From Planctomycetota bacterium (lineage in GTDB: Bacteria; Planctomycetota; UBA8108; UBA1146; JAJFFE01), in assembly GCA_020425835.1 (NCBI GenBank), contig JAGQRC010000067.1:1-10380 (forward strand): 10,380 nucleotides of DNA, in the 5' to 3' direction. Below are positions 1,365 through 10,380 of the stretch, piece after piece. Made by a program: the position numbers and the translations under genes. Every line of letters starts with the position of its first letter. Positions within the stretch are counted from its first letter, which is position 1. The notes under the pieces are model-generated. The model was not told the origin of the DNA. It saw only the letters and a list, made by a program, of their open reading frames with translations, and made no database searches.

Positions 1365-2645
1365 TCAGGGGAGATCGCCCCGGGCCCGCTCCAGGGTCGG
1401 CTTCCGCTTGACGATCAGCCCTTCGAGTCCGGAGTGGAGCACGAGCAACGCTCCCGGTGCAGCGTAGTGCTCGAAGATGTCCGAGAGCGTCCGCTCCTCG
1501 CCGGGCCACGGGTAGGCAAAGACGAGATCGAAGTCCTCCAGGTCGAGACCGAGGTCCTCGTACGCGGACTCCCCCGTGACCTCGAGATAGGGCGAGGGAC
1601 CGAGGTTCTCTCGGTAGTTGTCGTCCCCGCCTGGGATGAAGTTGCCGCAGGCGAACCGGACGGGGATCTCGAACGACGCGGCCAGCTCCTCAGCCTCGGT
1701 CACCAACTCCGGCTCGATCTCGATCCCGAAGGACTCGAAGTCCAGGAACGCCGCGAGATCGGCCACCACTCCGAAGCCGCTGCCCCACTCGCAGAAGCGG
1801 TCACCCGTGAGATACGGGGACTCGAGGAGGCGTCGGAGTCCCCGGTAGACCAGCGGGAAGTCGCTGGAAACGTAGCTGTGGATCGGATCGTGACGCCGAA
1901 CGCGGACGAACTCGTCGATCCGCGCCGCCGCCTCCTCGAGGAGCGCGGAGAACCGGATTGCCCTCTCCTCGCGCGCCAACTCTTGCTCGGCTCGGATTCG
2001 AGCGAGTCGACTTTCGCGTGTCGCCCGATCCACTTCGGCTCGAGCCCGTTCTCTCGCGATGGCTTCGTCCCCCTGTCGTCGAAGTCGATCGATCCGTCGC
2101 TGCGCCGCGGACTCTTCGCAGCGGTGTCGCTCCAACTCTTCTCGAGCCCTGCGCGCGCCATCACTCGCGAACTCGAACTCCCCCACGCGATCGCAGCGGA
2201 GTCCGACCTCGAAGAGGCGGGAAGCAAGCTCTCGATCGACGATGGCCGCGAGATCACCCCAGGCCGGCGGCTGGCCTTCGGGTCCGACCCAGCGGAGACC
2301 AGGGGCCGCGACGAGCATTGCGGGTCGAAGGTGTGTCGCGATCCATCCCGCGAGTTCGCGGGTCTCGATGTGGTCGACTTCAGGAAGGAACTCGCGACGA
2401 AAGAGCTTGCCGGATGACCCGTGGCGAGGGGGATCGAGCCAGACGTCGAACGAAAGCTCCGCCATCATTCCCGAGGAGTCGATCAAGGGACCGCTCTCGA
2501 CGCGAACCCGGAGCGGTAGCGTCGTCACCCGAAGACAAGTCCCGTCCGACCGGGGCTCCAACATCAGATCGACGGTCGACGGAGAGGGAGGGGGCTTCCG
2601 CCGGCCTCGAAGCAAGGACGCCACCCATACAGAGTGGTTCTTCAC
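1365..2645 (-). CDS. Fusion: possible SPFH-like domain, coiled coil and SAM-dependent methyltransferase
   Basis: A 426-residue protein. The open frame runs far upstream, but only as a shadow of the ATPase gene. The GTG at 2645-2643 overlaps the ATPase stop as GTGA and has GAGG 7 nt upstream (2653-2656), so I start there. Residues about 27-160 resemble an SPFH/band-7-like domain: beta strands around PLRVRVESG and MMAELSFDVWLDP, then a helix, then ELASRLFEVGLRCDRVGEFEF leading into a coiled coil. That similarity is an inference. Residues about 160-245 are a highly charged coiled coil. Residues about 280-410 are a class I Rossmann methyltransferase. Motif I is CEWGSGFGVV (285-294), with acidic Glu309 ending strand 2 (GIEIEPEL) and FDLVFAYPWPG (372-382) as the motif IV strand. 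No substrate-specific motif is recognisable. It is the last gene of the ESCRT-like run and appears translationally coupled to the Vps4-like gene, so it probably serves the same membrane process. The methyltransferase call is strong and the SPFH call tentative. Confidence 0.75.
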   Translation of the reverse strand: MKNHSVWVASLLRGRRKPPPSPSTVDLMLEPRSDGTCLRVTTLPLRVRVESGPLIDSSGMMAELSFDVWLDPPRHGSSGKLFRREFLPEVDHIETRELAGWIATHLRPAMLVAAPGLRWVGPEGQPPAWGDLAAIVDRELASRLFEVGLRCDRVGEFEFASDGARRAREELERHRCEESAAQRRIDRLRRQGDEAIARERARAEVDRATRESRLARIRAEQELAREERAIRFSALLEEAAARIDEFVRVRRHDPIHSYVSSDFPLVYRGLRRLLESPYLTGDRFCEWGSGFGVVADLAAFLDFESFGIEIEPELVTEAEELAASFEIPVRFACGNFIPGGDDNYRENLGPSPYLEVTGESAYEDLGLDLEDFDLVFAYPWPGEERTLSDIFEHYAAPGALLVLHSGLEGLIVKRKPTLERARGDLP

Positions 2646-3772
2646 CGTCGCGCCTCGCTTCGATCCCGATAGCCCTGGTACTTCTGCGCCATCGCGGCGT
2701 CGACCGAAGGCGAGGTCTCCGCCGCCGCACGGAGCAAACGCTCCCGATCGACCGGCCGCAGCTGCCCTCCACGGATGCTCGTCAGGAACGCGTCGTCCGC
2801 CGCCTTTCGACAGACTCCTCGAAGGTCCGCTCCACTGAACCCCTGGAGACGGTCCGCGAGTTCCTCCAGGTCGACATCCGGAGCAAGGGGTCGACCCTGG
2901 AGGTGAATCTCCAGGATCCGGCGAACCGCGGGTCGGTCCGGCATTCCGACGTAGATTCGCTCGTCGAACCGACCGGGCCGAAGGATGGCGGGATCCAGAG
3001 CCCAAGGTGCGTTGGTCGCACCGAGGAACAGAATGGGTTCCGTCCTTCCGCTGAATCCCTCGAGTTCGGTCAGTAGCTGCGGAACCAGGCGCGCCATCAC
3101 GCTGGACAGAGCCTCGCTCCTCCGCGGAGCCAGGGCGTCGATCTCGTCGATGAAGATGACCGAGGGGGCGCTTCGACGAGCTTCGGCAAAGAGTCGCTGG
3201 AGATTCTGTTCGGCCTCTCCGACCCACTTGGACAGGATGTCCGAGGGCTTGACGGTGAAGAAGGCGCACTGGGTCTCTCCTGCGACGGCGCGCGCGAGTA
3301 GGGTCTTCCCCGTTCCCGGTGGTCCGTAGAGGAGAACCCCGCCGCCCGGCTGCACACCGAAGCGCGCTGCCGTCTCGCTGTGCTGGAACGGGTAGATGAT
3401 CTTGAGCCGCAGCTCCTCCTTGACCTCTTCCAAGCCGGCAATGTCGTCGAAGCCGACCGCAGGGCGCTCCGCAATCGCAAAGGAAGCTCGGTCGTCTCCA
3501 GGCACGCAACCATCCGACTCGACAGACCGCCCACCGAGGGTTGCGCCGGCCTGCAGGTCGATGTCCCGAGCGAGGCCCATGAGTTCGCGCGCTCGCCGAG
3601 CGCGGACCTCCCGGAGACGACCACGACTCTGCGCTGCCGCCTCGAAGAGATGCTCCGCACTCTTGAGCAGGCACTCCCGGGCGGAGTTCCGATCCCCGCC
3701 TCGGTACGCCTCGAGCCCTCGCGCCCGGAACTTCTCGTAGCTCGTCAGATGGAACTCCGCAGACGTGCTCAC
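2642..3772 (-). CDS. Vps4-like AAA ATPase with N-terminal MIT-like domain
   Basis: A 376-residue protein. Its GTG (3772-3770) overlaps the upstream gene's stop as GTGA. Residues 9-73 form a charged three-helix segment (SYEKFRARGLEAYRGGD, then SARECLLKSAEHLFEAA, then a helix ending LARDID) matching the MIT domain that Vps4 uses to bind ESCRT-III tails. A linker (74-104) leads to one AAA module. It has FDDIAGLEEVKEEL at 108-121, Walker A GPPGTGKT (150-157), pore loop KWVGE (182-186), Walker B VIFIDEID (205-212), sensor 1 in GATNAPWALD (Asn254), arginine fingers near 265 and 268, and GFSGADL (311-317). The ATNxPWxLD segment and the C-terminal PSV...KYQGY helix (355-368) are Vps4-like. The RPGRF arginine-finger segment is closer to CDC48/FtsH-type AAA. 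By family it should be a hexameric unfoldase that disassembles ESCRT-III polymers. There is no transmembrane segment and no HExxH, so it is not FtsH. A katanin/spastin-like or generic CDC48 role is the alternative, but the neighbours favour Vps4. Confidence 0.88.
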   Translation of the reverse strand: MSTSAEFHLTSYEKFRARGLEAYRGGDRNSARECLLKSAEHLFEAAAQSRGRLREVRARRARELMGLARDIDLQAGATLGGRSVESDGCVPGDDRASFAIAERPAVGFDDIAGLEEVKEELRLKIIYPFQHSETAARFGVQPGGGVLLYGPPGTGKTLLARAVAGETQCAFFTVKPSDILSKWVGEAEQNLQRLFAEARRSAPSVIFIDEIDALAPRRSEALSSVMARLVPQLLTELEGFSGRTEPILFLGATNAPWALDPAILRPGRFDERIYVGMPDRPAVRRILEIHLQGRPLAPDVDLEELADRLQGFSGADLRGVCRKAADDAFLTSIRGGQLRPVDRERLLRAAAETSPSVDAAMAQKYQGYRDRSEARR

Positions 3773-4365
3773 TCGTGCCCCAACTCTCGACGCACGGCCT
3801 CCAACCCGCTGGCAATCTCTTCGTCCAACTCGCTTCGATCCTCAACCGCGAGGACCTCAGCGTCGATCATTCGATCGATCTCTTGGTCCGAGATAACTTC
3901 CGAGCCGCTCGGCTCGTACCCGAACATGGAAGAACTCGACATGTCGATGAAGATGTCCATCTGCTGCTCGAGCGACTCCGCTTTCGCCATCGCTCGCTCG
4001 AACTCGCGTTGCGTTTGCGTCAGGTCCGTCCGGCCGAAGGCGTCTCCAATCGCCTTGGAAACCGCATTCATCGAGTTCGCAAACTGAGCGTGTGCCTCGG
4101 CCTGGTTCTTGATCTGCATCGCCGTCTCGATGTTGAGGAGCTGCCGCTCCATCAGGAGGCGCTGGCTGGCAGTGCGCTTCAGAGTCTGCTTGAGAAACTT
4201 CAGCTGCGAATCGGACCCGAGACGAGCGGCCCTCTTCGCCTTCTCGAGATACTCCTCCTCGTTCTTCTCGAGGTCTCGGATGTTGCGGCGGATGGCGTTG
4301 AGCCCCTTGCGAACCTCGATCTCACGATCGATTCGGCGCTCATCCTTGGACTTGAACAAACTCAT
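3769..4365 (-). CDS. ESCRT-III-like subunit C (CHMP2/Vps24-like, MIM1-type tail)
   Basis: A 198-residue protein. Its ATG (4365-4363) has a strong GGGAGGGAGA ribosome site (4371-4380) 5 nt upstream. The plan is that of ESCRT-III. A short N-terminus (MSLFKSKDE) leads into a long charged alpha1/alpha2 hairpin (about 8-82), a less charged helix (MQIKNQAEAHAQFANSMNAV, 83-102), and a stretch GRTDLTQTQREFERAMAKAE like the CHMP alpha3/alpha4 region. LEQQMDIFIDMSSSSM (132-147) recalls the MDMKEEMM segment of CHMP proteins. An acidic C-terminal region ends in DEEIASGLEAVR (181-192), which fits the MIM1 pattern (D/E)xxLxxRLxxL(K/R) at all key positions except Gly for Arg. Function by family: membrane-associated filament subunit remodelled by Vps4. 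It lies 33 nt after subunit B and overlaps the ATPase gene by 4 nt. It resembles CHMP more than PspA/Vipp1. A generic coiled-coil protein is the alternative; the combined context makes that unlikely. Confidence 0.82.
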   Translation of the reverse strand: MSLFKSKDERRIDREIEVRKGLNAIRRNIRDLEKNEEEYLEKAKRAARLGSDSQLKFLKQTLKRTASQRLLMERQLLNIETAMQIKNQAEAHAQFANSMNAVSKAIGDAFGRTDLTQTQREFERAMAKAESLEQQMDIFIDMSSSSMFGYEPSGSEVISDQEIDRMIDAEVLAVEDRSELDEEIASGLEAVRRELGHE

Positions 4366-4398
4366 GCTGCTCTCCCTCCCACGCTCGGGCCGCCTCGA

Positions 4399-5004
4399 TC
4401 ACTCCGGCTCATGCGCCTGAAAGCGCTCCAGCAACTCCCGCTCGCGGTCCGTGCTCGCCTCGGGCTCCTCGGTTCCGGTCGTGGATGAGATCGCATCCAG
4501 CTCGGCCATGAACATTGCCTTCTCGGGGTCCTCCTTCGGTTCACTGTCCCCGCCGAGTTCCTCGAGGATCGCGGACACCTCATGGAGACAGTTCTCTCGG
4601 GAGTCGTCGTGGAGAGCCAAACGCTCGAGCACTCCGGACTCTCTGAACCGTTCCAGTAGCCGCTGTGCCCCGATTCGGTCACGCTGGGTCTCGAGGCGCT
4701 CGATCGCGCGGATCGCGCGTCGAAGTGCCAACCCCTCCAAGTTGTGTCCGCGCGCTTCGCGACGGAGGTCGTGTCCTGAGACCCGGTGCGCCTTGAGTTC
4801 GTCCCAGAGATAGTCGACCTCGACCGAGTTCCCCGTCGATCGGGCTCGCTTCAGGCGCTCCATGACCAGACGGCGCTGTCGTTCCCACCGACGCATCTCC
4901 ACGCGTACCCGCCGACGCTCGCGGTCGACCTCCTGCAGAGCGTCCTGGAGGTCGTCCAGACGCAGTCGGCGCCGCGAGAACAGAGACTGGAGGAAGGTCG
5001 CCAT
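4399..5004 (-). CDS. ESCRT-III-like subunit B (divergent coiled-coil filament protein)
   Basis: A 201-residue protein. The frame is open to 5067, but the ATG at 5004-5002 has GGAGGT (5011-5016) 6 nt upstream and overlaps the stop of subunit A by one base (TGATG), so I start there. The N-terminus MATFLQSLFS is short and amphipathic, like the membrane-inserting ANCHR segment of ESCRT-III. Next comes a very basic helical hairpin (about 14-118) with a break near ARSTGNS (54-60), as in alpha1/alpha2. The rest is increasingly acidic (150-201). The tail ERELLERFQAHE (188-199) partly fits MIM1: acidic first position, Leu at +3, Arg at +6, hydrophobic at +7, but not the last two positions. By itself it would be called only a coiled-coil protein. 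The size, the basic-to-acidic gradient, the tail motif and its place between two clearer ESCRT-III-like genes support the assignment. It is the most divergent of the three. Confidence 0.68.
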   Translation of the reverse strand: MATFLQSLFSRRRLRLDDLQDALQEVDRERRRVRVEMRRWERQRRLVMERLKRARSTGNSVEVDYLWDELKAHRVSGHDLRREARGHNLEGLALRRAIRAIERLETQRDRIGAQRLLERFRESGVLERLALHDDSRENCLHEVSAILEELGGDSEPKEDPEKAMFMAELDAISSTTGTEEPEASTDRERELLERFQAHEPE

Positions 5005-5702
5005 CACTCGACCTCCCCACCGAGCGTCGAGTCGACCGTCGCCGGCTCCGGTGTCGAGGCCGGCCAACGTCGTTCTCCCCCTGGAGGCAACGACAAGTCC
5101 AGCGAGGCCTCGTCGACCGGGCGAGGCGCGGTGGGTACGGCCTCGGGTTCGGCCACTCGCTCGATGCCGACGATCTCGGCCTCGATCTCGGACAGTTGCG
5201 ACCGGTCGTCGAGCGATCCCGCGAGATCGGTGACCAGCAGGTCCTCGGTCTCGAGGGTGTTCTGATAGCTCGACAACTCCTCTTCGTAGGTGTTGAGGAT
5301 CTCGTCGATCGAGGACTCGTCGACACCACGCATCTCCATCGCCTCGAGCGACTGGATCCGCCCGACGAGGTGGATCTGCAGGTTGATGTTGCGGTTGTAG
5401 ATTCGCTGACGTTCCTCGAGATTGTCCATCTGCTTGCGCAGTCGCTGGATCCGTCGGAGGACGTTGTACTTGCTCCGCTCCGGCAACTGCCCCTCGCGGA
5501 TGCGCTCGACCTCGGTCGACTCGACCCGCTCCAACGCCTCGATCTCGCGATTGACGCCGTTGACTTCCATCTCATTGCGCGTGATCAGCTCATCCAGGCC
5601 GGAGAGCAGCTGGCGAGGAGTCGTGGCGCCACGCAGCAGCTCCCGCGCTTCCACCGGAATCTCTCGCCGACCGAACAGTCGCTTGATCTTCTGCATGATC
5701 AT
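5004..5702 (-). CDS. ESCRT-III-like subunit A (Snf7/CHMP4-6-like, MIM2-type tail)
   Basis: A 232-residue protein and the first filament gene of the run. There are two possible ATGs. The one at 5702 has AGGAGT (5709-5714) 6 nt upstream and is preferred; the one at 5696 would drop two residues. The N-terminus MIMQKIKRLFGRRE is amphipathic and basic. Residues about 28-120 make a long helical hairpin with a turn near EGQLPERSK (70-78). RGVDESSIDEILNTYEEEL (125-143) resembles the Snf7 alpha4 region (MDIDKVDELM-like in CHMP4). LSEIEAEIVGIE (170-181) resembles the acidic alpha5 helix, and it is followed by AEPEAVPTAPRPV (184-196), a proline-rich stretch like MIM2 of CHMP6/CHMP4. The last 36 residues are low-complexity and acidic. 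Expected role: a core membrane-bending filament subunit. The stop overlaps the start of subunit B. PspA/Vipp1 membership is the main alternative, but those lack a MIM2-like tail. Confidence 0.78.
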   Translation of the reverse strand: MIMQKIKRLFGRREIPVEARELLRGATTPRQLLSGLDELITRNEMEVNGVNREIEALERVESTEVERIREGQLPERSKYNVLRRIQRLRKQMDNLEERQRIYNRNINLQIHLVGRIQSLEAMEMRGVDESSIDEILNTYEEELSSYQNTLETEDLLVTDLAGSLDDRSQLSEIEAEIVGIERVAEPEAVPTAPRPVDEASLDLSLPPGGERRWPASTPEPATVDSTLGGEVE

Positions 5703-5751: not shown

Positions 5752-7218
5752 TCAGTACCGATCTCTCTTCAGGATCTCCTTGCCCGCGACGCGAGTGAGC
5801 TGGAGGCGGGGATCATCCGCGCGGACCTGATCGAGGGCCTTCCCGAGCACTTCTCGCGACACACCCAACGACTCGATCAAAGGCTCCACTTCGAGATGCC
5901 CTCCGGGGATTCGGAGTTCGGGGTCCTCGGTGAGGCGGGCGTAGACGCGACTCACCTTCTCCGACTCCTGCTCGGGATCGAAGAGGGAACGAAGCTCCGA
6001 CAGGCGTTTCGGCAGAGTGTCCCCGATCTTCCAGCCGCCACCCGGTCGCGGCTGGATCAGCACCAGGCCGACTCGCTCATGCCGTGGCGGACGCTCGATC
6101 AGCCCCGGCTCCCAACTCGTCGTCGCGAGAATGCCGAGTACGTGAAACGCCGAGGTCGGTCGACAATGTTCCGCAATCACCTCATCGAGATCGTCTCGAC
6201 CGAAGGGAGCTGATGGGCTCTCGCCTCGCGCAAGAGCCTCGATCGGACTGCGACATGCGGCGGTGATGATCACCTTCGGCTTTTTGCGCCCGAGCAAGCC
6301 AGCGCACGGAAACGAATAGCGGGTGGCACGATCGTGCGGCAGCTCCTCGAGCAGGGACCGGTCGTAGCGCCCCAGAGCCTTCAGTGTCGACACCACTTTC
6401 TGATAGGGGTCGAGGATCTCGGGATCGAGCGCGTGCTCCCGTACCGAGTGGTAGCGGTTCTCCAACGGGTCGAACACGCGACTCAGGGTGGCGATGCTCC
6501 GCTCGAAACGGTCGAGATACTTCTCCTCCAGGCGGCGGAAGGGACTCACTCGCAGAGTTCCGGTCGGCGAACTCAATGGCGTCACCCGCGCGGAACGCGG
6601 CGGTTCGATCGCACTCGACATGAGAGCCCCTTCGTCGTTCGGCTCACCTCGAAGCGCCTCCTCGGGCGAGATCCAACTCCAACCACCGCGAGGGGTCCGT
6701 TCCCACCGAGCGACTCGGCGAAGGTCGTCGATCATTTCGTCGATCTCGACCTCACTCGCGGCTCGTTCACCCGGCTCGTGCCGTCGTCGCCTCGGATACA
6801 GCTCCAGCTCCCCCGTCAAGGTTCGAAAGAAGGCCCCGACGAGCCACTCCCTCTCGACTGGCTGGAGACTCTGCGTGTGCACCGCCTCCTCCACGAGCCG
6901 GGCACAGCGCTGGGCGAGCGTCGCGGGATCGCCCTGCTGTCCTGCCAGAATGCGTCGAATCTCTGCGAGCGATCGGCCCAAACGGGTCTTCATGAAGTGA
7001 ATGGCGATCAGGTACGAGAGGATCTCGTCCTTGGGGTAGACCGGCGTCTTGCCCGCCTTCTGGGGCGGAGGGAGGACTCCCTCGGACACGTAGAAGCGGA
7101 GATTGCGGACGGTCATCGGCACGCCGAGCCGCGAAGCGTGGTCTGCAATCCACGCGTAGTCGACGAGCTCGCCCTGCCCGGGGATGAGCTCGTCGATTCG
7201 GATCACACCCGACCCCAT
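5752..7218 (-). CDS. MerR-type HTH protein with long unknown C-terminal region
   Basis: A 488-residue protein. Its ATG (7218-7216) has AGGGAG (7225-7230) 6 nt upstream. Residues about 20-92 are a MerR-family winged HTH: MTVRNLRFYVSEGVLPPP (35-52) matches the recognition helix and wing (normally ...R.YE..GLL.P), followed by KTPVYPKDEILSYL and LGRSLAEIRRIL. Typical MerR regulators are 110-280 residues, so about 390 further residues are unusual. Residues 95-185 are helical and charged, 186-225 a Pro/Ser linker. Residues about 226-412 have alternating strands (KVIITAACRSP, FHVLGILATTSWE, VGLVLIQPRPGGGW) that I do not recognise. The final 65 residues look like a second winged helix (GGHLEVEPLIESLGVS, then a hairpin LQLTRVAGKEIL). 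No metal-binding cysteine cluster is obvious. It lies 49 nt ahead of the ESCRT-III-like genes in the same direction, so it is a likely operon regulator; a structural DNA-membrane linker is possible. HTH call firm, role inferred. Confidence 0.75.
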   Translation of the reverse strand: MGSGVIRIDELIPGQGELVDYAWIADHASRLGVPMTVRNLRFYVSEGVLPPPQKAGKTPVYPKDEILSYLIAIHFMKTRLGRSLAEIRRILAGQQGDPATLAQRCARLVEEAVHTQSLQPVEREWLVGAFFRTLTGELELYPRRRRHEPGERAASEVEIDEMIDDLRRVARWERTPRGGWSWISPEEALRGEPNDEGALMSSAIEPPRSARVTPLSSPTGTLRVSPFRRLEEKYLDRFERSIATLSRVFDPLENRYHSVREHALDPEILDPYQKVVSTLKALGRYDRSLLEELPHDRATRYSFPCAGLLGRKKPKVIITAACRSPIEALARGESPSAPFGRDDLDEVIAEHCRPTSAFHVLGILATTSWEPGLIERPPRHERVGLVLIQPRPGGGWKIGDTLPKRLSELRSLFDPEQESEKVSRVYARLTEDPELRIPGGHLEVEPLIESLGVSREVLGKALDQVRADDPRLQLTRVAGKEILKRDRY

Positions 7219-7274
7219 GATGAACTCCCTGCGATCGACTCGGAGAGACGCCCAGCGGGTCCACTCCGACGGTT

Positions 7275-7310
7275 GGTGACAGTAGGTGACAGTTGCTGCC
7301 AGTGGGCAGC
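7275..7310. repeat. Three tandem 10-bp repeats running into an inverted repeat; candidate operator
   Basis: GGTGACAGTA (7275-7284), GGTGACAGTT (7285-7294) and GCTGCCAGTG (7295-7304) are head-to-tail units of exactly 10 bp; the third differs from the consensus at two of the first nine positions. The third unit is also half of a dyad: GCTGCC (7295-7300) and GGCAGC (7305-7310) around AGTG. One-helical-turn spacing places each unit on the same DNA face, as expected for cooperative regulator binding. The cluster ends 57 bp before the start codon of the MerR-type gene. It may be that protein's own operator (inference). Confidence 0.45.
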
Positions 7311-7320
7311 GACCGTGCCA
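7305..7320 (-). promoter_or_regulatory. Weak sigma-54-like promoter element
   Basis: On the minus strand, TGGCACGGTCGCTGCC (7320 to 7305) has the -24 half intact (TGGCACG) and a GC at -12 separated by the required 10 bp. The -12 half is CTGCC instead of TTGCA/T. Transcription would start near 7294 with a leader of about 75 nt, inside the 10-bp repeats. The match could arise by chance in GC-rich DNA. Confidence 0.2.
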
Positions 7321-7634
7321 CTTCCGGATCTCTCGGTCGCACCCCGATCGACGACGGCGCCTCTGCGCGGAAACGCGAGGCGTTCCCTACGCAAGGCTTT
7401 CAACGGAAAGGGGATGAGCACTGGGAATCGCAGGAGGGAGGCGGACTCGGGCGGAGGGACGCCGGGCCGAGCCGCGCGTCAGGATCGGGATCCCCGGAGA
7501 ACGCGATGTTCAGCTTGGTCGATCAAAAGCGCCATCCGCTCGGCGGGAAGACCTCCGAGAGGAACCCCGAGTTCGCTGGACCGAGTGAATCTCCCGGCAG
7601 CGCGAGGGGCCCCGGGATCGCTGACGATCGAGCA

Positions 7635-7654
7635 GCGCCGCGACAGCGCGGCGC
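7635..7654 (-). terminator. Perfect 8-bp GC hairpin directly after hpt
   Basis: GCGCCGCG (7635-7642) and CGCGGCGC (7647-7654) are perfect inverted repeats with a 4-nt loop. The hairpin starts 6 nt after the hpt stop codon, the right place to end the upp-hpt transcript. No T-run follows on the minus strand, so termination may be inefficient or factor-dependent, and read-through into the ESCRT-like operon is possible. Confidence 0.45.
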
Positions 7655-7660
7655 CGACGC

Positions 7661-8221
7661 TCACAACAACTCGAGCTGCGCGATGTAGGGGAGGTTTCGG
7701 TAATAGCCCTGGTAGTCGAGGCCGTAGCCGACCACGAACTCGTTCGGGATGTTGAATCCCACGTACTCCAGGTTCGAGATCTTGACGTTGTTCGACGGCT
7801 TGTGGAGCAGCGCACAGACCTTCAGGCTGGCCGGTCGACGAACTTCCAACGTCGCCTTCAAGTATTCGAGCGTCAGGCCGGTGTCCACGATGTCCTCGAC
7901 GAGGAGCACGTGGCGGTTCGACACCGAGCAGGCGATGTCGAGCTCCAGCTTCACCTCTCCCGTGGTCACCACTTGGTTCCCGTAGCTCGAGACTCGCATG
8001 AACTCCGTCGTCAGGGGAAACTCGAGTCCGCGAATCAGGTCGGCGACGAAGATGAACGACCCCTTCAACACGGCGATCACGACGGGATCGAGCTCACGAT
8101 AGTCTGCCGTGAGCTGGTGCCGCAGCTCGCGAATACGTTGATCGACCTTCTCCTCGGAGAGAAGGATCCGAAGGCGGTGCTCCGGGAGCGGCGGCACGAC
8201 ATGATGGGTCTTCTGGTTCAT
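7661..8221 (-). CDS. hpt: Hypoxanthine-guanine phosphoribosyltransferase
   Basis: A 186-residue cytosolic enzyme that joins hypoxanthine or guanine to PRPP to give IMP or GMP (purine salvage). The length is typical for bacterial Hpt. Diagnostic parts are LKGSF (52-56), the flexible-loop region VSSYGN (77-82), the PRPP signature VLLVEDIVDTGLTL (105-118) with Glu109, Asp110 and probable catalytic Asp113, and the C-terminal base-binding segment FVVGYGLDYQGYYRNLPYI (162-180). I start at the ATG at 8221-8219, 10 nt after the upp-like stop. The frame is open to 8272, but that would overlap the upstream gene by 41 bases and the extra residues match nothing in the family. No strong ribosome site is visible, so translation is probably coupled to the preceding gene. 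Confidence 0.95.
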   Translation of the reverse strand: MNQKTHHVVPPLPEHRLRILLSEEKVDQRIRELRHQLTADYRELDPVVIAVLKGSFIFVADLIRGLEFPLTTEFMRVSSYGNQVVTTGEVKLELDIACSVSNRHVLLVEDIVDTGLTLEYLKATLEVRRPASLKVCALLHKPSNNVKISNLEYVGFNIPNEFVVGYGLDYQGYYRNLPYIAQLELL

Positions 8222-8231
8222 GGAGCTGTCG

Positions 8232-9113
8232 TCAAACGTAGGAGTTGTTGAGCACTTCGCCGAAACCGCCACCGCCGGGAACGATGTAGTGCCGTTCGTT
8301 CAGACCGTCTTCCCGATCCCAGTGCTGACCCGGCATCGACGAGAGCACGTCGGGGTCGCTGGTCCCGCGGTCGACGCGGATCGCGTAGATCACGACGTCC
8401 GGATGGGCCTCCCGCATCGCTCGGACATAATTGGGCGTCACGATCAGATGGACGTTGATGATCTTCCGAGGGCTTCCTCGGAGCTCGTGCTTGTAATGGT
8501 TGATCGCTCGGATCAGCGACGATCCGGTAGCCCCCATGGGGTCGGGGAAGAGGACGAGGCGGCCATCGACGTCGCCGCCGATCTTCGTTCCGTGGATCCC
8601 GGCGCCGGTCACCCGCCCCTCGGAATCCGTGAGTCGATCCATCACGATGTGATCCTGACGGATACCGCCGGGGTCCAGGAACTCGTTGAGCATGTGAAAG
8701 CAAATGTGAGACGGGAACGTCCCGGCGCGCGCGATGTTCACGGTGACCACTCGAGTCGCGGGGTCGATTACCGCCCCGCGGTAGACGCCGTTCGGGTGGA
8801 CCTCGGCCATTCGTGTGGGTGCGGCAACCGCGCACCTCGGGAACTCGCGATCGAAGACGTGGACCAACAGCGCGCGGTAGCAGTTCTCGATCAGCGAGTT
8901 GATGAGGGGCTGTCGCGCCGCGGGCCCGCACAAGGTCGCCAACTGGGTCAGGAGATAGGGCTGTGCCATGATGTGGACGTTGGGGCCGTAGCCGTGCGCC
9001 ATCTCATGGTCCCCGACGGCCTGCGCTCGATAGGCGACGTCCGCCATGGCCTCACTGTTCTTCGCCAACGCGTGCTCCCTCTCGCGCCAGGTCGCCGCTG
9101 AGATCTGCGACAC
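8232..9113 (-). CDS. upp: Uracil phosphoribosyltransferase-like protein
   Basis: A 293-residue type I phosphoribosyltransferase of the UPRT family, which would convert uracil and PRPP to UMP. From the chosen start, the ARAG motif is at 128-131 (UPRT: RAG(L/I)PM), the PRPP loop DPMGATGSS is at 191-199 (UPRT: DPMxATGGS), and the uracil-binding end YIVPGGGGFG is at 276-285. The family is about 210 residues, so this one has a long N-terminus. Start choice: a GTG at 9113-9111 has GGAG 4 nt upstream (9118-9121), and the codons between it and the ATG at 9047 are almost all G/C in third position, as in coding sequence. The 9047 ATG (271 residues) is the alternative. Family membership is clear. The altered PRPP loop (MGATGSS) and weakly conserved neighbourhood leave room for a different base or a regulatory role. 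It is upstream of hpt by 10 nt, forming a salvage pair. Confidence 0.82.
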   Translation of the reverse strand: MSQISAATWREREHALAKNSEAMADVAYRAQAVGDHEMAHGYGPNVHIMAQPYLLTQLATLCGPAARQPLINSLIENCYRALLVHVFDREFPRCAVAAPTRMAEVHPNGVYRGAVIDPATRVVTVNIARAGTFPSHICFHMLNEFLDPGGIRQDHIVMDRLTDSEGRVTGAGIHGTKIGGDVDGRLVLFPDPMGATGSSLIRAINHYKHELRGSPRKIINVHLIVTPNYVRAMREAHPDVVIYAIRVDRGTSDPDVLSSMPGQHWDREDGLNERHYIVPGGGGFGEVLNNSYV

Positions 9114-9162
9114 GAGTCTCCGGTGGGCTGCTGGTCGAGTCCGAAAACCCCGGTTGCGCCGG

Positions 9163-9168
9163 ATTCTA
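9163..9168 (-). promoter_or_regulatory. Candidate -10 element for upp-hpt
   Basis: On the minus strand TAGAAT (9168 to 9163) matches TATAAT in five of six positions and stands out in this GC-rich gap. A poor -35 (TTCATC) lies 18 bp upstream. It would place the RNA start near 9156, about 43 nt before the GTG at 9113. Confidence 0.3.
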
Positions 9169-9315
9169 ACCGGAACCGTGCACGCGGATGAAGGCGGTCC
9201 GACCGAACGAAGAATCCGGGATGCGAGGTCGCCGGCGCCATCGACACCCGTCGAAGACGCCGGCGACCCGAGCTTTGGCATTCCGAGCATCGCAGGCAGC
9301 CACTCGGAGTCGGCA

Positions 9316-10380
9316 TCAGAACATCGGAGACTCCGGGAGCCGGAGACGCGGGATCCTCTCGCAGGAAGGTGTGAGTAGCCAGCGAGCGACAGCGGGGTCG
9401 TATCCCGCGGAATCTTCGAGCGGCTCGCCCTCATCCCGGCGAGTCAGCTCTGCAAGCACGCGCTCGGCGACCTCGCTCTCCGCTCCTGAGAACAGGACGC
9501 CTCCGGCGGCCCGCCGTGCATCGTCATCTCGCCCACTCATTCGGTGGATCGCCGCCAGACAGACCCAACGGGAAGCCGCATCCGCCGCAACACGGTCCGA
9601 CTCGATGATCGAGCGAACCAGCTCGTCGAGGCGTGCCTCACTTCCGAGATGAGCCGCTGCATCCCATTCGTACAGAACCAGGGATGGCTGGGCCCGAATT
9701 GCGGACTCGAACTGAGCCGCCGCCGCCTCGATGTCCCCGACCCCGGCCAACGCCACCGCCTCGAAGAAGCCCACCACACCCCGACGTCCCACATGCTCAC
9801 GTGAACGTCCGAACGCCACGGCGGCCTCCTCGAAGCGACCGTCCCGCATGGCGCGCCAACCGTCGCAGAACTCTCGCTCCCCCGGTTCGAGATCCAAGGG
9901 CTTGGGGTTCGACGCAGCGAGCCCGAAGCCGGCTACGAAACCGTCGTAGTAGTCGGATCGGTCGTAGTAGGAGTAGTCGAACCAGAACGGGGTATAGCAG
10001 TAGAGGAAGCGCGGGTAGCAGTACGTCCGGTAGAAATAGTGGCAGTCGTATGGCCGCCAGTAGCTCCACCTCGGCCAGCAGTACGCCGAGTAGTACGAGT
10101 AACAGGGTCGAATGGGGCTCCAACAACGAGTCCAACACCGCGAGTACGGCGCGAACCCCAAGCCCCAACCGAACCATCCGCTCCACGAACCGGTGTCGTA
10201 GTAGAGGGAGAACGACGGCGTGATCGAGGCAGCAACGCCGGCGACTTCGACCCCGGTCGAGACTCCCCCTCCGGTCGTCGCGGGGAAGACGATTCGACCG
10301 TCCGCGCGTGCTCCGGCGGTCGCCGGAGTCAGGCTGCCGACGGCCACGGCGAGCGACGGGTTCGCGCCGCTGACCAGGGG
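9316..10380 (-). CDS. Exported Tyr/Trp/Cys-rich TPR protein (5' end outside window)
   Basis: The frame is open to the window edge and 354 residues are visible. A GTG at 10347 is in frame, but the 11 residues before it continue a hydrophobic stretch (ending NPSLAVAVGSLTPA) that looks like the end of a signal peptide with cleavage after AGARA. The gene therefore probably starts just beyond 10380. Counting from that GTG, residues about 48-137 are extremely rich in Tyr, Trp, Phe and Cys, with few charges and many YY, WxR and CY pairs. Residues about 154-300 are helical TPR-like repeats (EFCDGWRAMRDGRFEEAAVAFG at the start; a second GDIEAAAAQFESAIRAQP unit). The expected place is the periplasm or outer envelope surface. 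The TPR part suggests protein-protein binding; the aromatic/Cys region may be a wall- or surface-attached, possibly disulfide-linked segment. No enzymatic motif is seen. Its gene precedes upp-hpt but is separated by about 200 bp with a candidate promoter. Confidence 0.7.
   Translation of the reverse strand, partial: PLVSGANPSLAVAVGSLTPATAGARADGRIVFPATTGGGVSTGVEVAGVAASITPSFSLYYDTGSWSGWFGWGLGFAPYSRCWTRCWSPIRPCYSYYSAYCWPRWSYWRPYDCHYFYRTYCYPRFLYCYTPFWFDYSYYDRSDYYDGFVAGFGLAASNPKPLDLEPGEREFCDGWRAMRDGRFEEAAVAFGRSREHVGRRGVVGFFEAVALAGVGDIEAAAAQFESAIRAQPSLVLYEWDAAAHLGSEARLDELVRSIIESDRVAADAASRWVCLAAIHRMSGRDDDARRAAGGVLFSGAESEVAERVLAELTRRDEGEPLEDSAGYDPAVARWLLTPSCERIPRLRLPESPMF

Follow-up and report, generated by a model that had tools for sequence, protein, structure and literature searches.

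A likely ESCRT-III/Vps4-like system encoded by a conserved gene cluster in Planctomycetota

The cluster and the closest described systems

ESCRT-III in combination with Vps4 is described as confined to archaea and eukaryotes (PMC10936438; this and the other papers are cited here for selected passages), and a 2023 review states that a clear Vps4 homologue is absent in bacteria (PMC7615534), and our first-pass annotation remarked that the bacterial superfamily members PspA and Vipp1 are without a MIT-bearing Vps4 partner. The question of an ATPase is left unsettled in a 2021 Cell study of Vipp1/PspA (PMC8281802). We describe here a gene cluster on a 10,380-base stretch of planctomycete DNA (the window, meaning the whole stretch analysed) encoding E3, assigned by sequence to the ESCRT-III (Snf7/CHMP) family, two ESCRT-III-like proteins, E1 and E2, and an AAA protein with a probable MIT domain, AAA1; many related loci encode a second AAA protein, AAA2. 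Using the E3 profile to search a sample of 392 planctomycete genomes we identified E3 in 55, with one match apiece at E 2.4e-47 or better. The cluster very likely represents a bacterial ESCRT-III/Vps4-like system of Planctomycetota, in which an ESCRT-III polymer would be remodelled by MIT-AAA motors. As first annotated, four consecutive open reading frames (ORFs) are present on the minus strand, E1, E2 and E3 being followed directly by AAA1:

5752..7218, minus strand: UPS, the upstream gene, 488 amino acids, first gene of the conserved cluster
5004..5702, minus strand: E1, 232 amino acids
4399..5004, minus strand: E2, 201 amino acids counted from an ATG that overlaps the E1 stop
3769..4365, minus strand: E3, 198 amino acids, Snf7/CHMP family by sequence
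3790..3825, minus strand: MIM1-like C-terminal helix DEEIASGLEAVR, E3 residues 181-192, with G at MIM1's R
2642..3772, minus strand: AAA1, 376 amino acids, with a GTG start overlapping the E3 stop
3542..3772, minus strand: probable MIT-like domain of AAA1, the N-terminal 77 residues, helical-looking
2768..3475, minus strand: AAA1 core, with intact Walker A (GPPGTGKT), Walker B (VIFIDEID), pore loop (KWVGEAE) and RPGRFD motif

The stop and start codons overlap at the E1/E2 (TGATG) and E3/AAA1 (GTGA) junctions, which suggests that both gene pairs are translationally coupled.

The closest precedent is an mSystems 2024 study (PMC11237479). The passages considered describe bacterial Vps4-like AAA genes that have no accompanying snf7, the co-occurrence of Snf7 with PspA in some Deltaproteobacteria and Bacteroidetes, and transmembrane (TM)-bearing PspA or Snf7 homologues alongside AAA genes. 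Because it reports these looser bacterial Snf7/AAA associations, the novelty of the present cluster is lowered. The planctomycete loci share with those neighbourhoods a bacterial Vps4-type AAA protein and a Snf7 homologue near AAA genes. They differ in that the transferred Vps4-like gene of that study lost snf7 to a TPR/6TM gene, and the other Snf7 described there has a TM segment and lies in a longer ABC/OmpA operon. The arrangement UPS-E1-E2-AAA2-E3-AAA1 is not described in the passages considered, with 'planctomycet' occurring 0 times in the main text as consulted, and no description of an ESCRT-III/AAA cluster in Planctomycetes was found in the open-licence literature, judged by the titles and abstract starts listed. 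New here is a bacterial ESCRT-III/MIT-AAA system with a CDC48-like AAA1 core, often a second MIT-AAA protein and, in the window's clade, an upstream helix-turn-helix (HTH) gene.

E3 and the ESCRT-III-like proteins E1 and E2

The window E3 matches Pfam Snf7 at E 3.6e-5 with 23.9 bits, below the Pfam cut-off of 27.3, and 35 of the 46 aligned E3 members (window included) match this family at E ≤0.01, the best at 3.2e-8. PspA_IM30 was absent among the seven families listed for the 46 members at E 0.01 and was not listed for E1, E2 or E3 of the window at E 1. In a control, five of five forward E3 proteins matched Snf7 (E 7.5e-8 to 0.0013), two of them, P0024 and P0112, above the Pfam cut-off, and none of five reversed proteins did at E 1; one reversed protein reached E 0.0023 with the unrelated family Med28, so that matches near 0.002 have to be read as noise level. 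A profile built from the 46 sequences and searched against 177,635 PDB sequences ranked human CHMP3 first (E 1.5e-4), in a co-linear match of 156 positions (profile 13-168 to CHMP3 14-166) that likens E3 to the eukaryotic proteins, followed by CHMP2A (0.049) and then yeast Snf7 (0.24). Among the E3 relatives retrieved from the database (best 120 of 189 matches listed), 76 of 120 start with MGLFK, resembling what we take to be the MGLF start of CHMP3. Together these matches identify E3, at the level of sequence, as an ESCRT-III protein of the Snf7/CHMP family. One genome (G164, loci L029 and L061) has one in-frame TAA inside the E3 frame of the profile match, owing to which this copy reads shorter; error and decay are indistinguishable here.

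The tail of the window E3 closes with a conserved helix, LDEEIASGLEAVRRELG. The MIM1 consensus is (D/E)xxLxxRLxxL(K/R), and a relaxed version of this register occurs in 107 of the 120 listed E3 proteins (0.6 on average in shuffled tails) and, with the last position dropped, in 34 of the 55 genomes. A near-MIM1 form, [DE]xx[LIVM]xx[RK]LxxL[KR], in which no position but the first hydrophobic one and the R/K is relaxed, was found in 8/55 genomes (0.01 on average in shuffled tails); these eight tails, exemplified by EDKVSSRLDSLR, look closely related. The exact consensus occurs in 0/120 listed proteins and 0/55 genomes, and 21/55 tails fit no MIM1-like pattern. Because the patterns were drawn up after the tails had been inspected, the sequences are related and these 21 fit none, we treat the tail as a possible MIT-docking motif, a lead rather than proof. 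At some loci a MIM1-like tail recalls eukaryotic ESCRT; the many E3 tails with G in place of MIM1's R depart from it.

The first-pass annotation had placed all three small proteins on the ESCRT-III plan, and this holds for E3 by sequence and apparently for E2 by predicted fold, leaving E1 with the helix plan only. In the Pfam scan of the window proteins neither E1 nor E2 matched Snf7 at E 1. The predicted basic hairpin and acidic tail are reflected in the net charges of first part and tail, which are +5/-22 for E1, +9/-14 for E2 and +7/-15 for E3, and the sign pattern recurs in 35/49 E1, 12/12 E2 and 120/120 E3 proteins, the window proteins being counted in these totals (E1 has 48 database relatives). 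Structure prediction returned the expected short N-terminal helix and long two-helix hairpin for both E1 and E2. In the AlphaFold model of E1 (mean pLDDT 80.5, >90 in each ten-residue block of 1-120) a short helix (2-9) precedes the hairpin (29-69/75-125), helices 129-163 and 167-178 and a disordered tail, and in that of E2 (mean pLDDT 80.1, the remaining four models 72-76) a short helix (2-10) precedes the hairpin (16-56/60-106) and further helices.

Foldseek searches with the E2 model returned CdvB2, CdvB or CHMP chains in 12 of the first 15 rows (from 7 entries, best E 0.16), with CdvB2 ranked first and CHMP3 and CdvB after it, a likeness to the archaeal Cdv system (CdvB, CdvB1, CdvB2 and CdvC/Vps4). 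The first two rows for E1 were Vipp1 (E 0.22) and Asgard ESCRT-IIIB (E 0.24), with unrelated hairpins ranking beside ESCRT-III. Chains of the ESCRT-III superfamily make up 26/50 rows for E2 and 10/50 for E1, with several chains per entry and all at E >0.001, and Vipp1 and PspA turn up among the fold matches. VIA Z does not discriminate for either model, and neither presence in the VIA lists nor absence from them counted towards membership; coiled-coil hairpins are common folds. On these models E2 appears ESCRT-III-like in its predicted fold, and E1 may be called ESCRT-III-like through its helix plan only. Locus L019 has two tandem E2-type genes (6499-7128 and 7159-7785), so the number of ESCRT-III-like subunits differs between clades.

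The AAA partners and conservation of the cluster

AAA1 matches Pfam AAA (3.4e-43) and AAA_lid_3. In profile-profile comparison its N-terminus aligned with the MIT domain of AAA2 over 61 columns (probability 74%, E 2.9e-5). Its PDB matches include 2mpk, chitin synthase 1, which we take to be a MIT domain and which ranked first at E 0.01 and, in another profile search, second at 0.019 with a TPR protein close behind at 0.039, as well as 2w2u (E 0.22), presumably the MIT domain of Sulfolobus Vps4. Repeat TIM-barrel designs topping the PDB list (7osv, 8.9e-4) were set aside because each repeat contributes about 5 bits and the score is high only as a sum. The Pfam MIT family was not matched by AAA1 N-termini and TPR_2 was matched in 3/11 (best 0.0013), for which reason the MIT-like domain of the first-pass annotation, weak by sequence, is retained as probable and not as proven, with TPR as the alternative. 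Vps4_C was not among the 25 families listed for the AAA proteins. AAA1 can thus be described from its sequence as Vps4-like in architecture with a core nearer CDC48 than CdvC, the latter a difference from eukaryotic VPS4A/B.

AAA2, which is not in the window, is a second AAA gene found before E3 in 39 of the 55 loci (for example L003 8781-9974 and L010 8693-9928). A profile of its N-terminus drawn from 23 of the 39 loci had VPS4A/B MIT domains as its first seven PDB matches (best E 4.6e-4), and a smaller profile of nine N-termini had such domains at ranks one to six (E 0.003). As with eukaryotic VPS4, the likeness extends over the whole protein: AAA2 aligned to VPS4B in a single continuous alignment through MIT and AAA (7-353 to 6-355; 216.7 bits, rank 58, after two-ring CDC48-type chains). 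In Pfam its N-termini match MIT in 2/9 and TPR_2 in 2/9. Judged by these alignments AAA2 carries a clear VPS4-type MIT domain. At L058 (3764-4348) and L060 (1742-2344) the AAA2 place between E2 and E3 is filled by an ORF with a lipoprotein-like start that looks coiled-coil by eye, and no MIT-AAA gene was found in the contig stretch examined of either locus.

Over the 55 loci we identified UPS in 41, E1 in 42 (8 of these matches weak, at 20-100 bits), E2 in 38, AAA2 in 39 and AAA1 in 26. The search for the same gene order in other bacterial genomes, suggested in the first pass, yielded AAA1 or AAA2 in 48/55 E3 loci and both in 17/55, the presence of two AAA genes being a difference from archaeal Cdv. 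The commonest orders are UPS-E1-E2-AAA2-E3 and UPS-E1-E2-AAA2-E3-AAA1, with 11 loci each. Wherever AAA2 is present (39/39 loci) no other cluster gene comes between it and E3, which it precedes, and in all loci with AAA1 (26/26) that gene is the first of the cluster to follow E3. The AAA1-E3 gap is ≤300 nucleotides (nt) in 23/26 loci (at L073 the AAA1 match is partial and lies 4 kb from E3); the AAA2-E3 gap is ≤300 nt in 22/38 measurable loci and 418 to 4798 nt in the other 16, and at L064 AAA2 and E3 read in one frame across Ns. At L075-L079 and L084-L092 about 0.7 to 4.8 kb separates AAA2 from E3, and at L082 and L083 neither E1, E2 nor an AAA gene accompanies E3 within the stretch examined, the E2 match of the L082 genome (G181) being on a separate contig. 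Since the profiles were rebuilt from these same loci and contig ends cut many of them, the gene-order figures describe rather than test the arrangement. E2 occurs in 43/392 genomes, in 40/55 with E3 versus 3/337 without (Fisher 1.5e-38, relatedness uncorrected). The E3 alignment was also run against the genome collection in a scan based on peptide patterns; this is no census of other phyla and gave 19 loci, all of them corresponding to genomes of the planctomycete sample. The Snf7 model PF03357 recovers just 3/10 E3-bearing genomes (1 above cut-off) and is therefore too blunt for a census.

The N-terminus of UPS in the window is a MerR-type HTH (Pfam MerR_1 3e-6), seen in 3/13 aligned members (window, L002, L006 by alignment), and the C-terminal domain is conserved in the alignment. 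The upstream gene of L008, L014, L017 and partial L011 has a cysteine-rich (CxxC) N-terminal part in MerR's place. A C-terminal winged helix is suggested by a single weak match to GntR (0.06), and across the 13 members no family recurred consistently. The HTH gene of the window's clade is reminiscent of the winged-helix (wH) genes of archaeal loci (PMC10936438), from which the planctomycete gene differs in being MerR-like or in having an unassigned domain. The cluster is flanked in the window by the following:

7661..8272, upstream of UPS: hpt, above the NCBIfam TIGR01203 cut-off
8232..9434, upstream of the cluster: UPRTase-like ORF, below the upp cut-off
9316..10347, upstream of the cluster: TPR-containing ORF
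1365..2480, minus strand, after AAA1: methyltransferase-like ORF with a weak ribosomal protein L11 methyltransferase match

The UPRTase-like protein may be a divergent upp paralogue. Its gene and hpt form a pair upstream in the window's clade (window 7661-9434, L002 2289-3787, L006 2-1486).

Alternative explanations and cellular role

Two results weigh against a strict reading of the cluster as an ESCRT-III/Vps4-like system. The AAA1 core, announced in the first pass as Vps4-type, does have the motifs intact, but it scores best with CDC48 in NCBIfam (261 bits, followed by PAN 236, FtsH 222 and CdvC 189; these scores stand in for an AAA phylogeny, and the CdvC cut-off is 650 bits). Secondly, profile-profile comparison of E1, E2 and E3 gave no significant alignment, and a common origin of the three by this comparison was dropped as not significant.

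The first result bears on the alternative that the cluster encodes a CDC48-type unfoldase that acts by way of MIT- or TPR-like N-domains, either in protein quality control or in taking complexes apart, with E1-E3 as non-polymerising coiled-coil adaptors. The AAA2 of L003 scores about equally with CDC48 (175 bits), CdvC (173 bits, far under its cut-off) and PAN, so that by NCBIfam neither AAA protein has a core of the Vps4 group over CDC48; the PDB lists of both are headed by CDC48/VCP, TPR_2 matches part of the AAA N-termini and coiled-coil hairpins are common folds. Adaptors of this kind are, however, difficult to reconcile with the specific homology of E3 to CHMP3/Snf7, and an unfoldase with the VPS4-type MIT domain of AAA2 and with N-termini that in both AAA proteins are helical-looking stretches of about 75 residues, no CDC48 N-domain family being among the 25 families listed for AAA1. 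The first-pass annotation had held that an AAA domain within FtsH/CDC48 and lacking a MIT fold would refute the ESCRT-III/Vps4-like operon; the core does lie nearer CDC48, while a MIT domain is likely on AAA1 and that of AAA2 is VPS4-type. We regard the unfoldase as improbable.

Rather less probable still is a PspA-like envelope stress system, in which E1-E3 would be divergent PspA/Vipp1 proteins and the MerR-like UPS the stress regulator. PspA and Vipp1 (IM30) belong to the same superfamily and share its helix plan, Vipp1 tops the E1 Foldseek rows, wH genes are reported beside pspA (PMC10936438) and one source labels the E3 relative P0104 'phage shock protein A'. Set against this, E3 members match Snf7 and were not listed with PspA_IM30, the planctomycete cluster has MIT-AAA partners and just three of the 13 UPS proteins have the MerR domain. 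A separate PspA match is present in 28/55 E3-bearing genomes, 24 of them above cut-off, so E3 is not just the form that PspA takes in this phylum.

A recent acquisition from archaea, or archaeal DNA binned in error, for which the reported restriction of ESCRT-III with Vps4 to archaea or eukaryotes (PMC10936438) might be cited, is scarcely credible: the planctomycete AAA proteins score 173-189 bits against the CdvC cut-off of 650, a difference from archaeal Cdv as is the bacterial host itself, and no archaeal name occurs among the named listed relatives of E1, E2 and E3, which are Planctomycetota, Planctomycetes or Planctomycetales. Mis-binning in particular is very unlikely because five contigs carrying the cluster measure 0.46 to 2.45 Mb; the cluster also recurs across the sample, and the neighbours in the window are of bacterial type, as noted in the first pass and borne out by hpt. 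The host is bacterial, of the Planctomycetota, and an archaeal contig is not indicated, the 19 loci of the peptide-pattern scan all lying in the planctomycete sample. An ancient transfer from archaea would be compatible with these data.

For the preferred ESCRT-III/Vps4-like system established ESCRT biology offers a model. E1, E2 and E3 would attach to the cytoplasmic membrane on its inner side by their short N-terminal helices and polymerise via their basic hairpins. The MIT domain of an AAA hexamer would grip the E3 C-terminal helix, and ATP hydrolysis would draw subunits out, altering the polymer and thereby bending, sealing or cutting the membrane. By the same analogy we infer that MIT-AAA proteins extract membrane-bound ESCRT-III subunits. 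The membrane-remodelling system of the first-pass annotation is in this form supported in substance, the remodelling itself being an extrapolation and AAA1 counting as Vps4-like by architecture rather than as an established Vps4 orthologue. Candidate membrane events include division or budding, vesicles, inner-membrane folding and repair. That the three-subunit ESCRT-III and its one or two MIT-AAA motors constrict and cut the inner membrane in some Planctomycetes, during division, budding or the formation of internal vesicles, is a tentative and rather doubtful proposal.

No FtsZ/tubulin match was found in the 55 E3-bearing genomes. In the whole sample such a match occurs in 7/392 genomes, six above cut-off, and in 13/14 control genomes; the only control matching Snf7, below cut-off, is Sulfolobus acidocaldarius, which is outside those 13. 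The seven FtsZ-positive genomes (G044, G117, G148, G160, G210, G262 and G366) are all outside the E3-bearing set. Since 385/392 genomes have no FtsZ match, its absence is compatible with a role in division but does not argue for one, and lack of FtsZ was rejected as evidence for such a role, the contrast not being significant (Fisher 0.60). With E3 in only 55/392 genomes, the cluster does not serve as division machinery for the phylum at large.

A conserved bacterial cluster combining sequence-level ESCRT-III, two ESCRT-III-like subunits and MIT-AAA motors bears on the origin of Vps4, and may preserve an ancient CDC48-to-Vps4 intermediate. It changes the picture of ESCRT-III with Vps4 as limited to archaea and eukaryotes and provides a concrete, testable membrane-remodelling candidate in a phylum mostly without FtsZ. 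If the tentative proposal of membrane scission is true, these Planctomycetota would possess a bacterial counterpart of the Cdv machine, in which ESCRT-III has a Vps4-like partner of its own.

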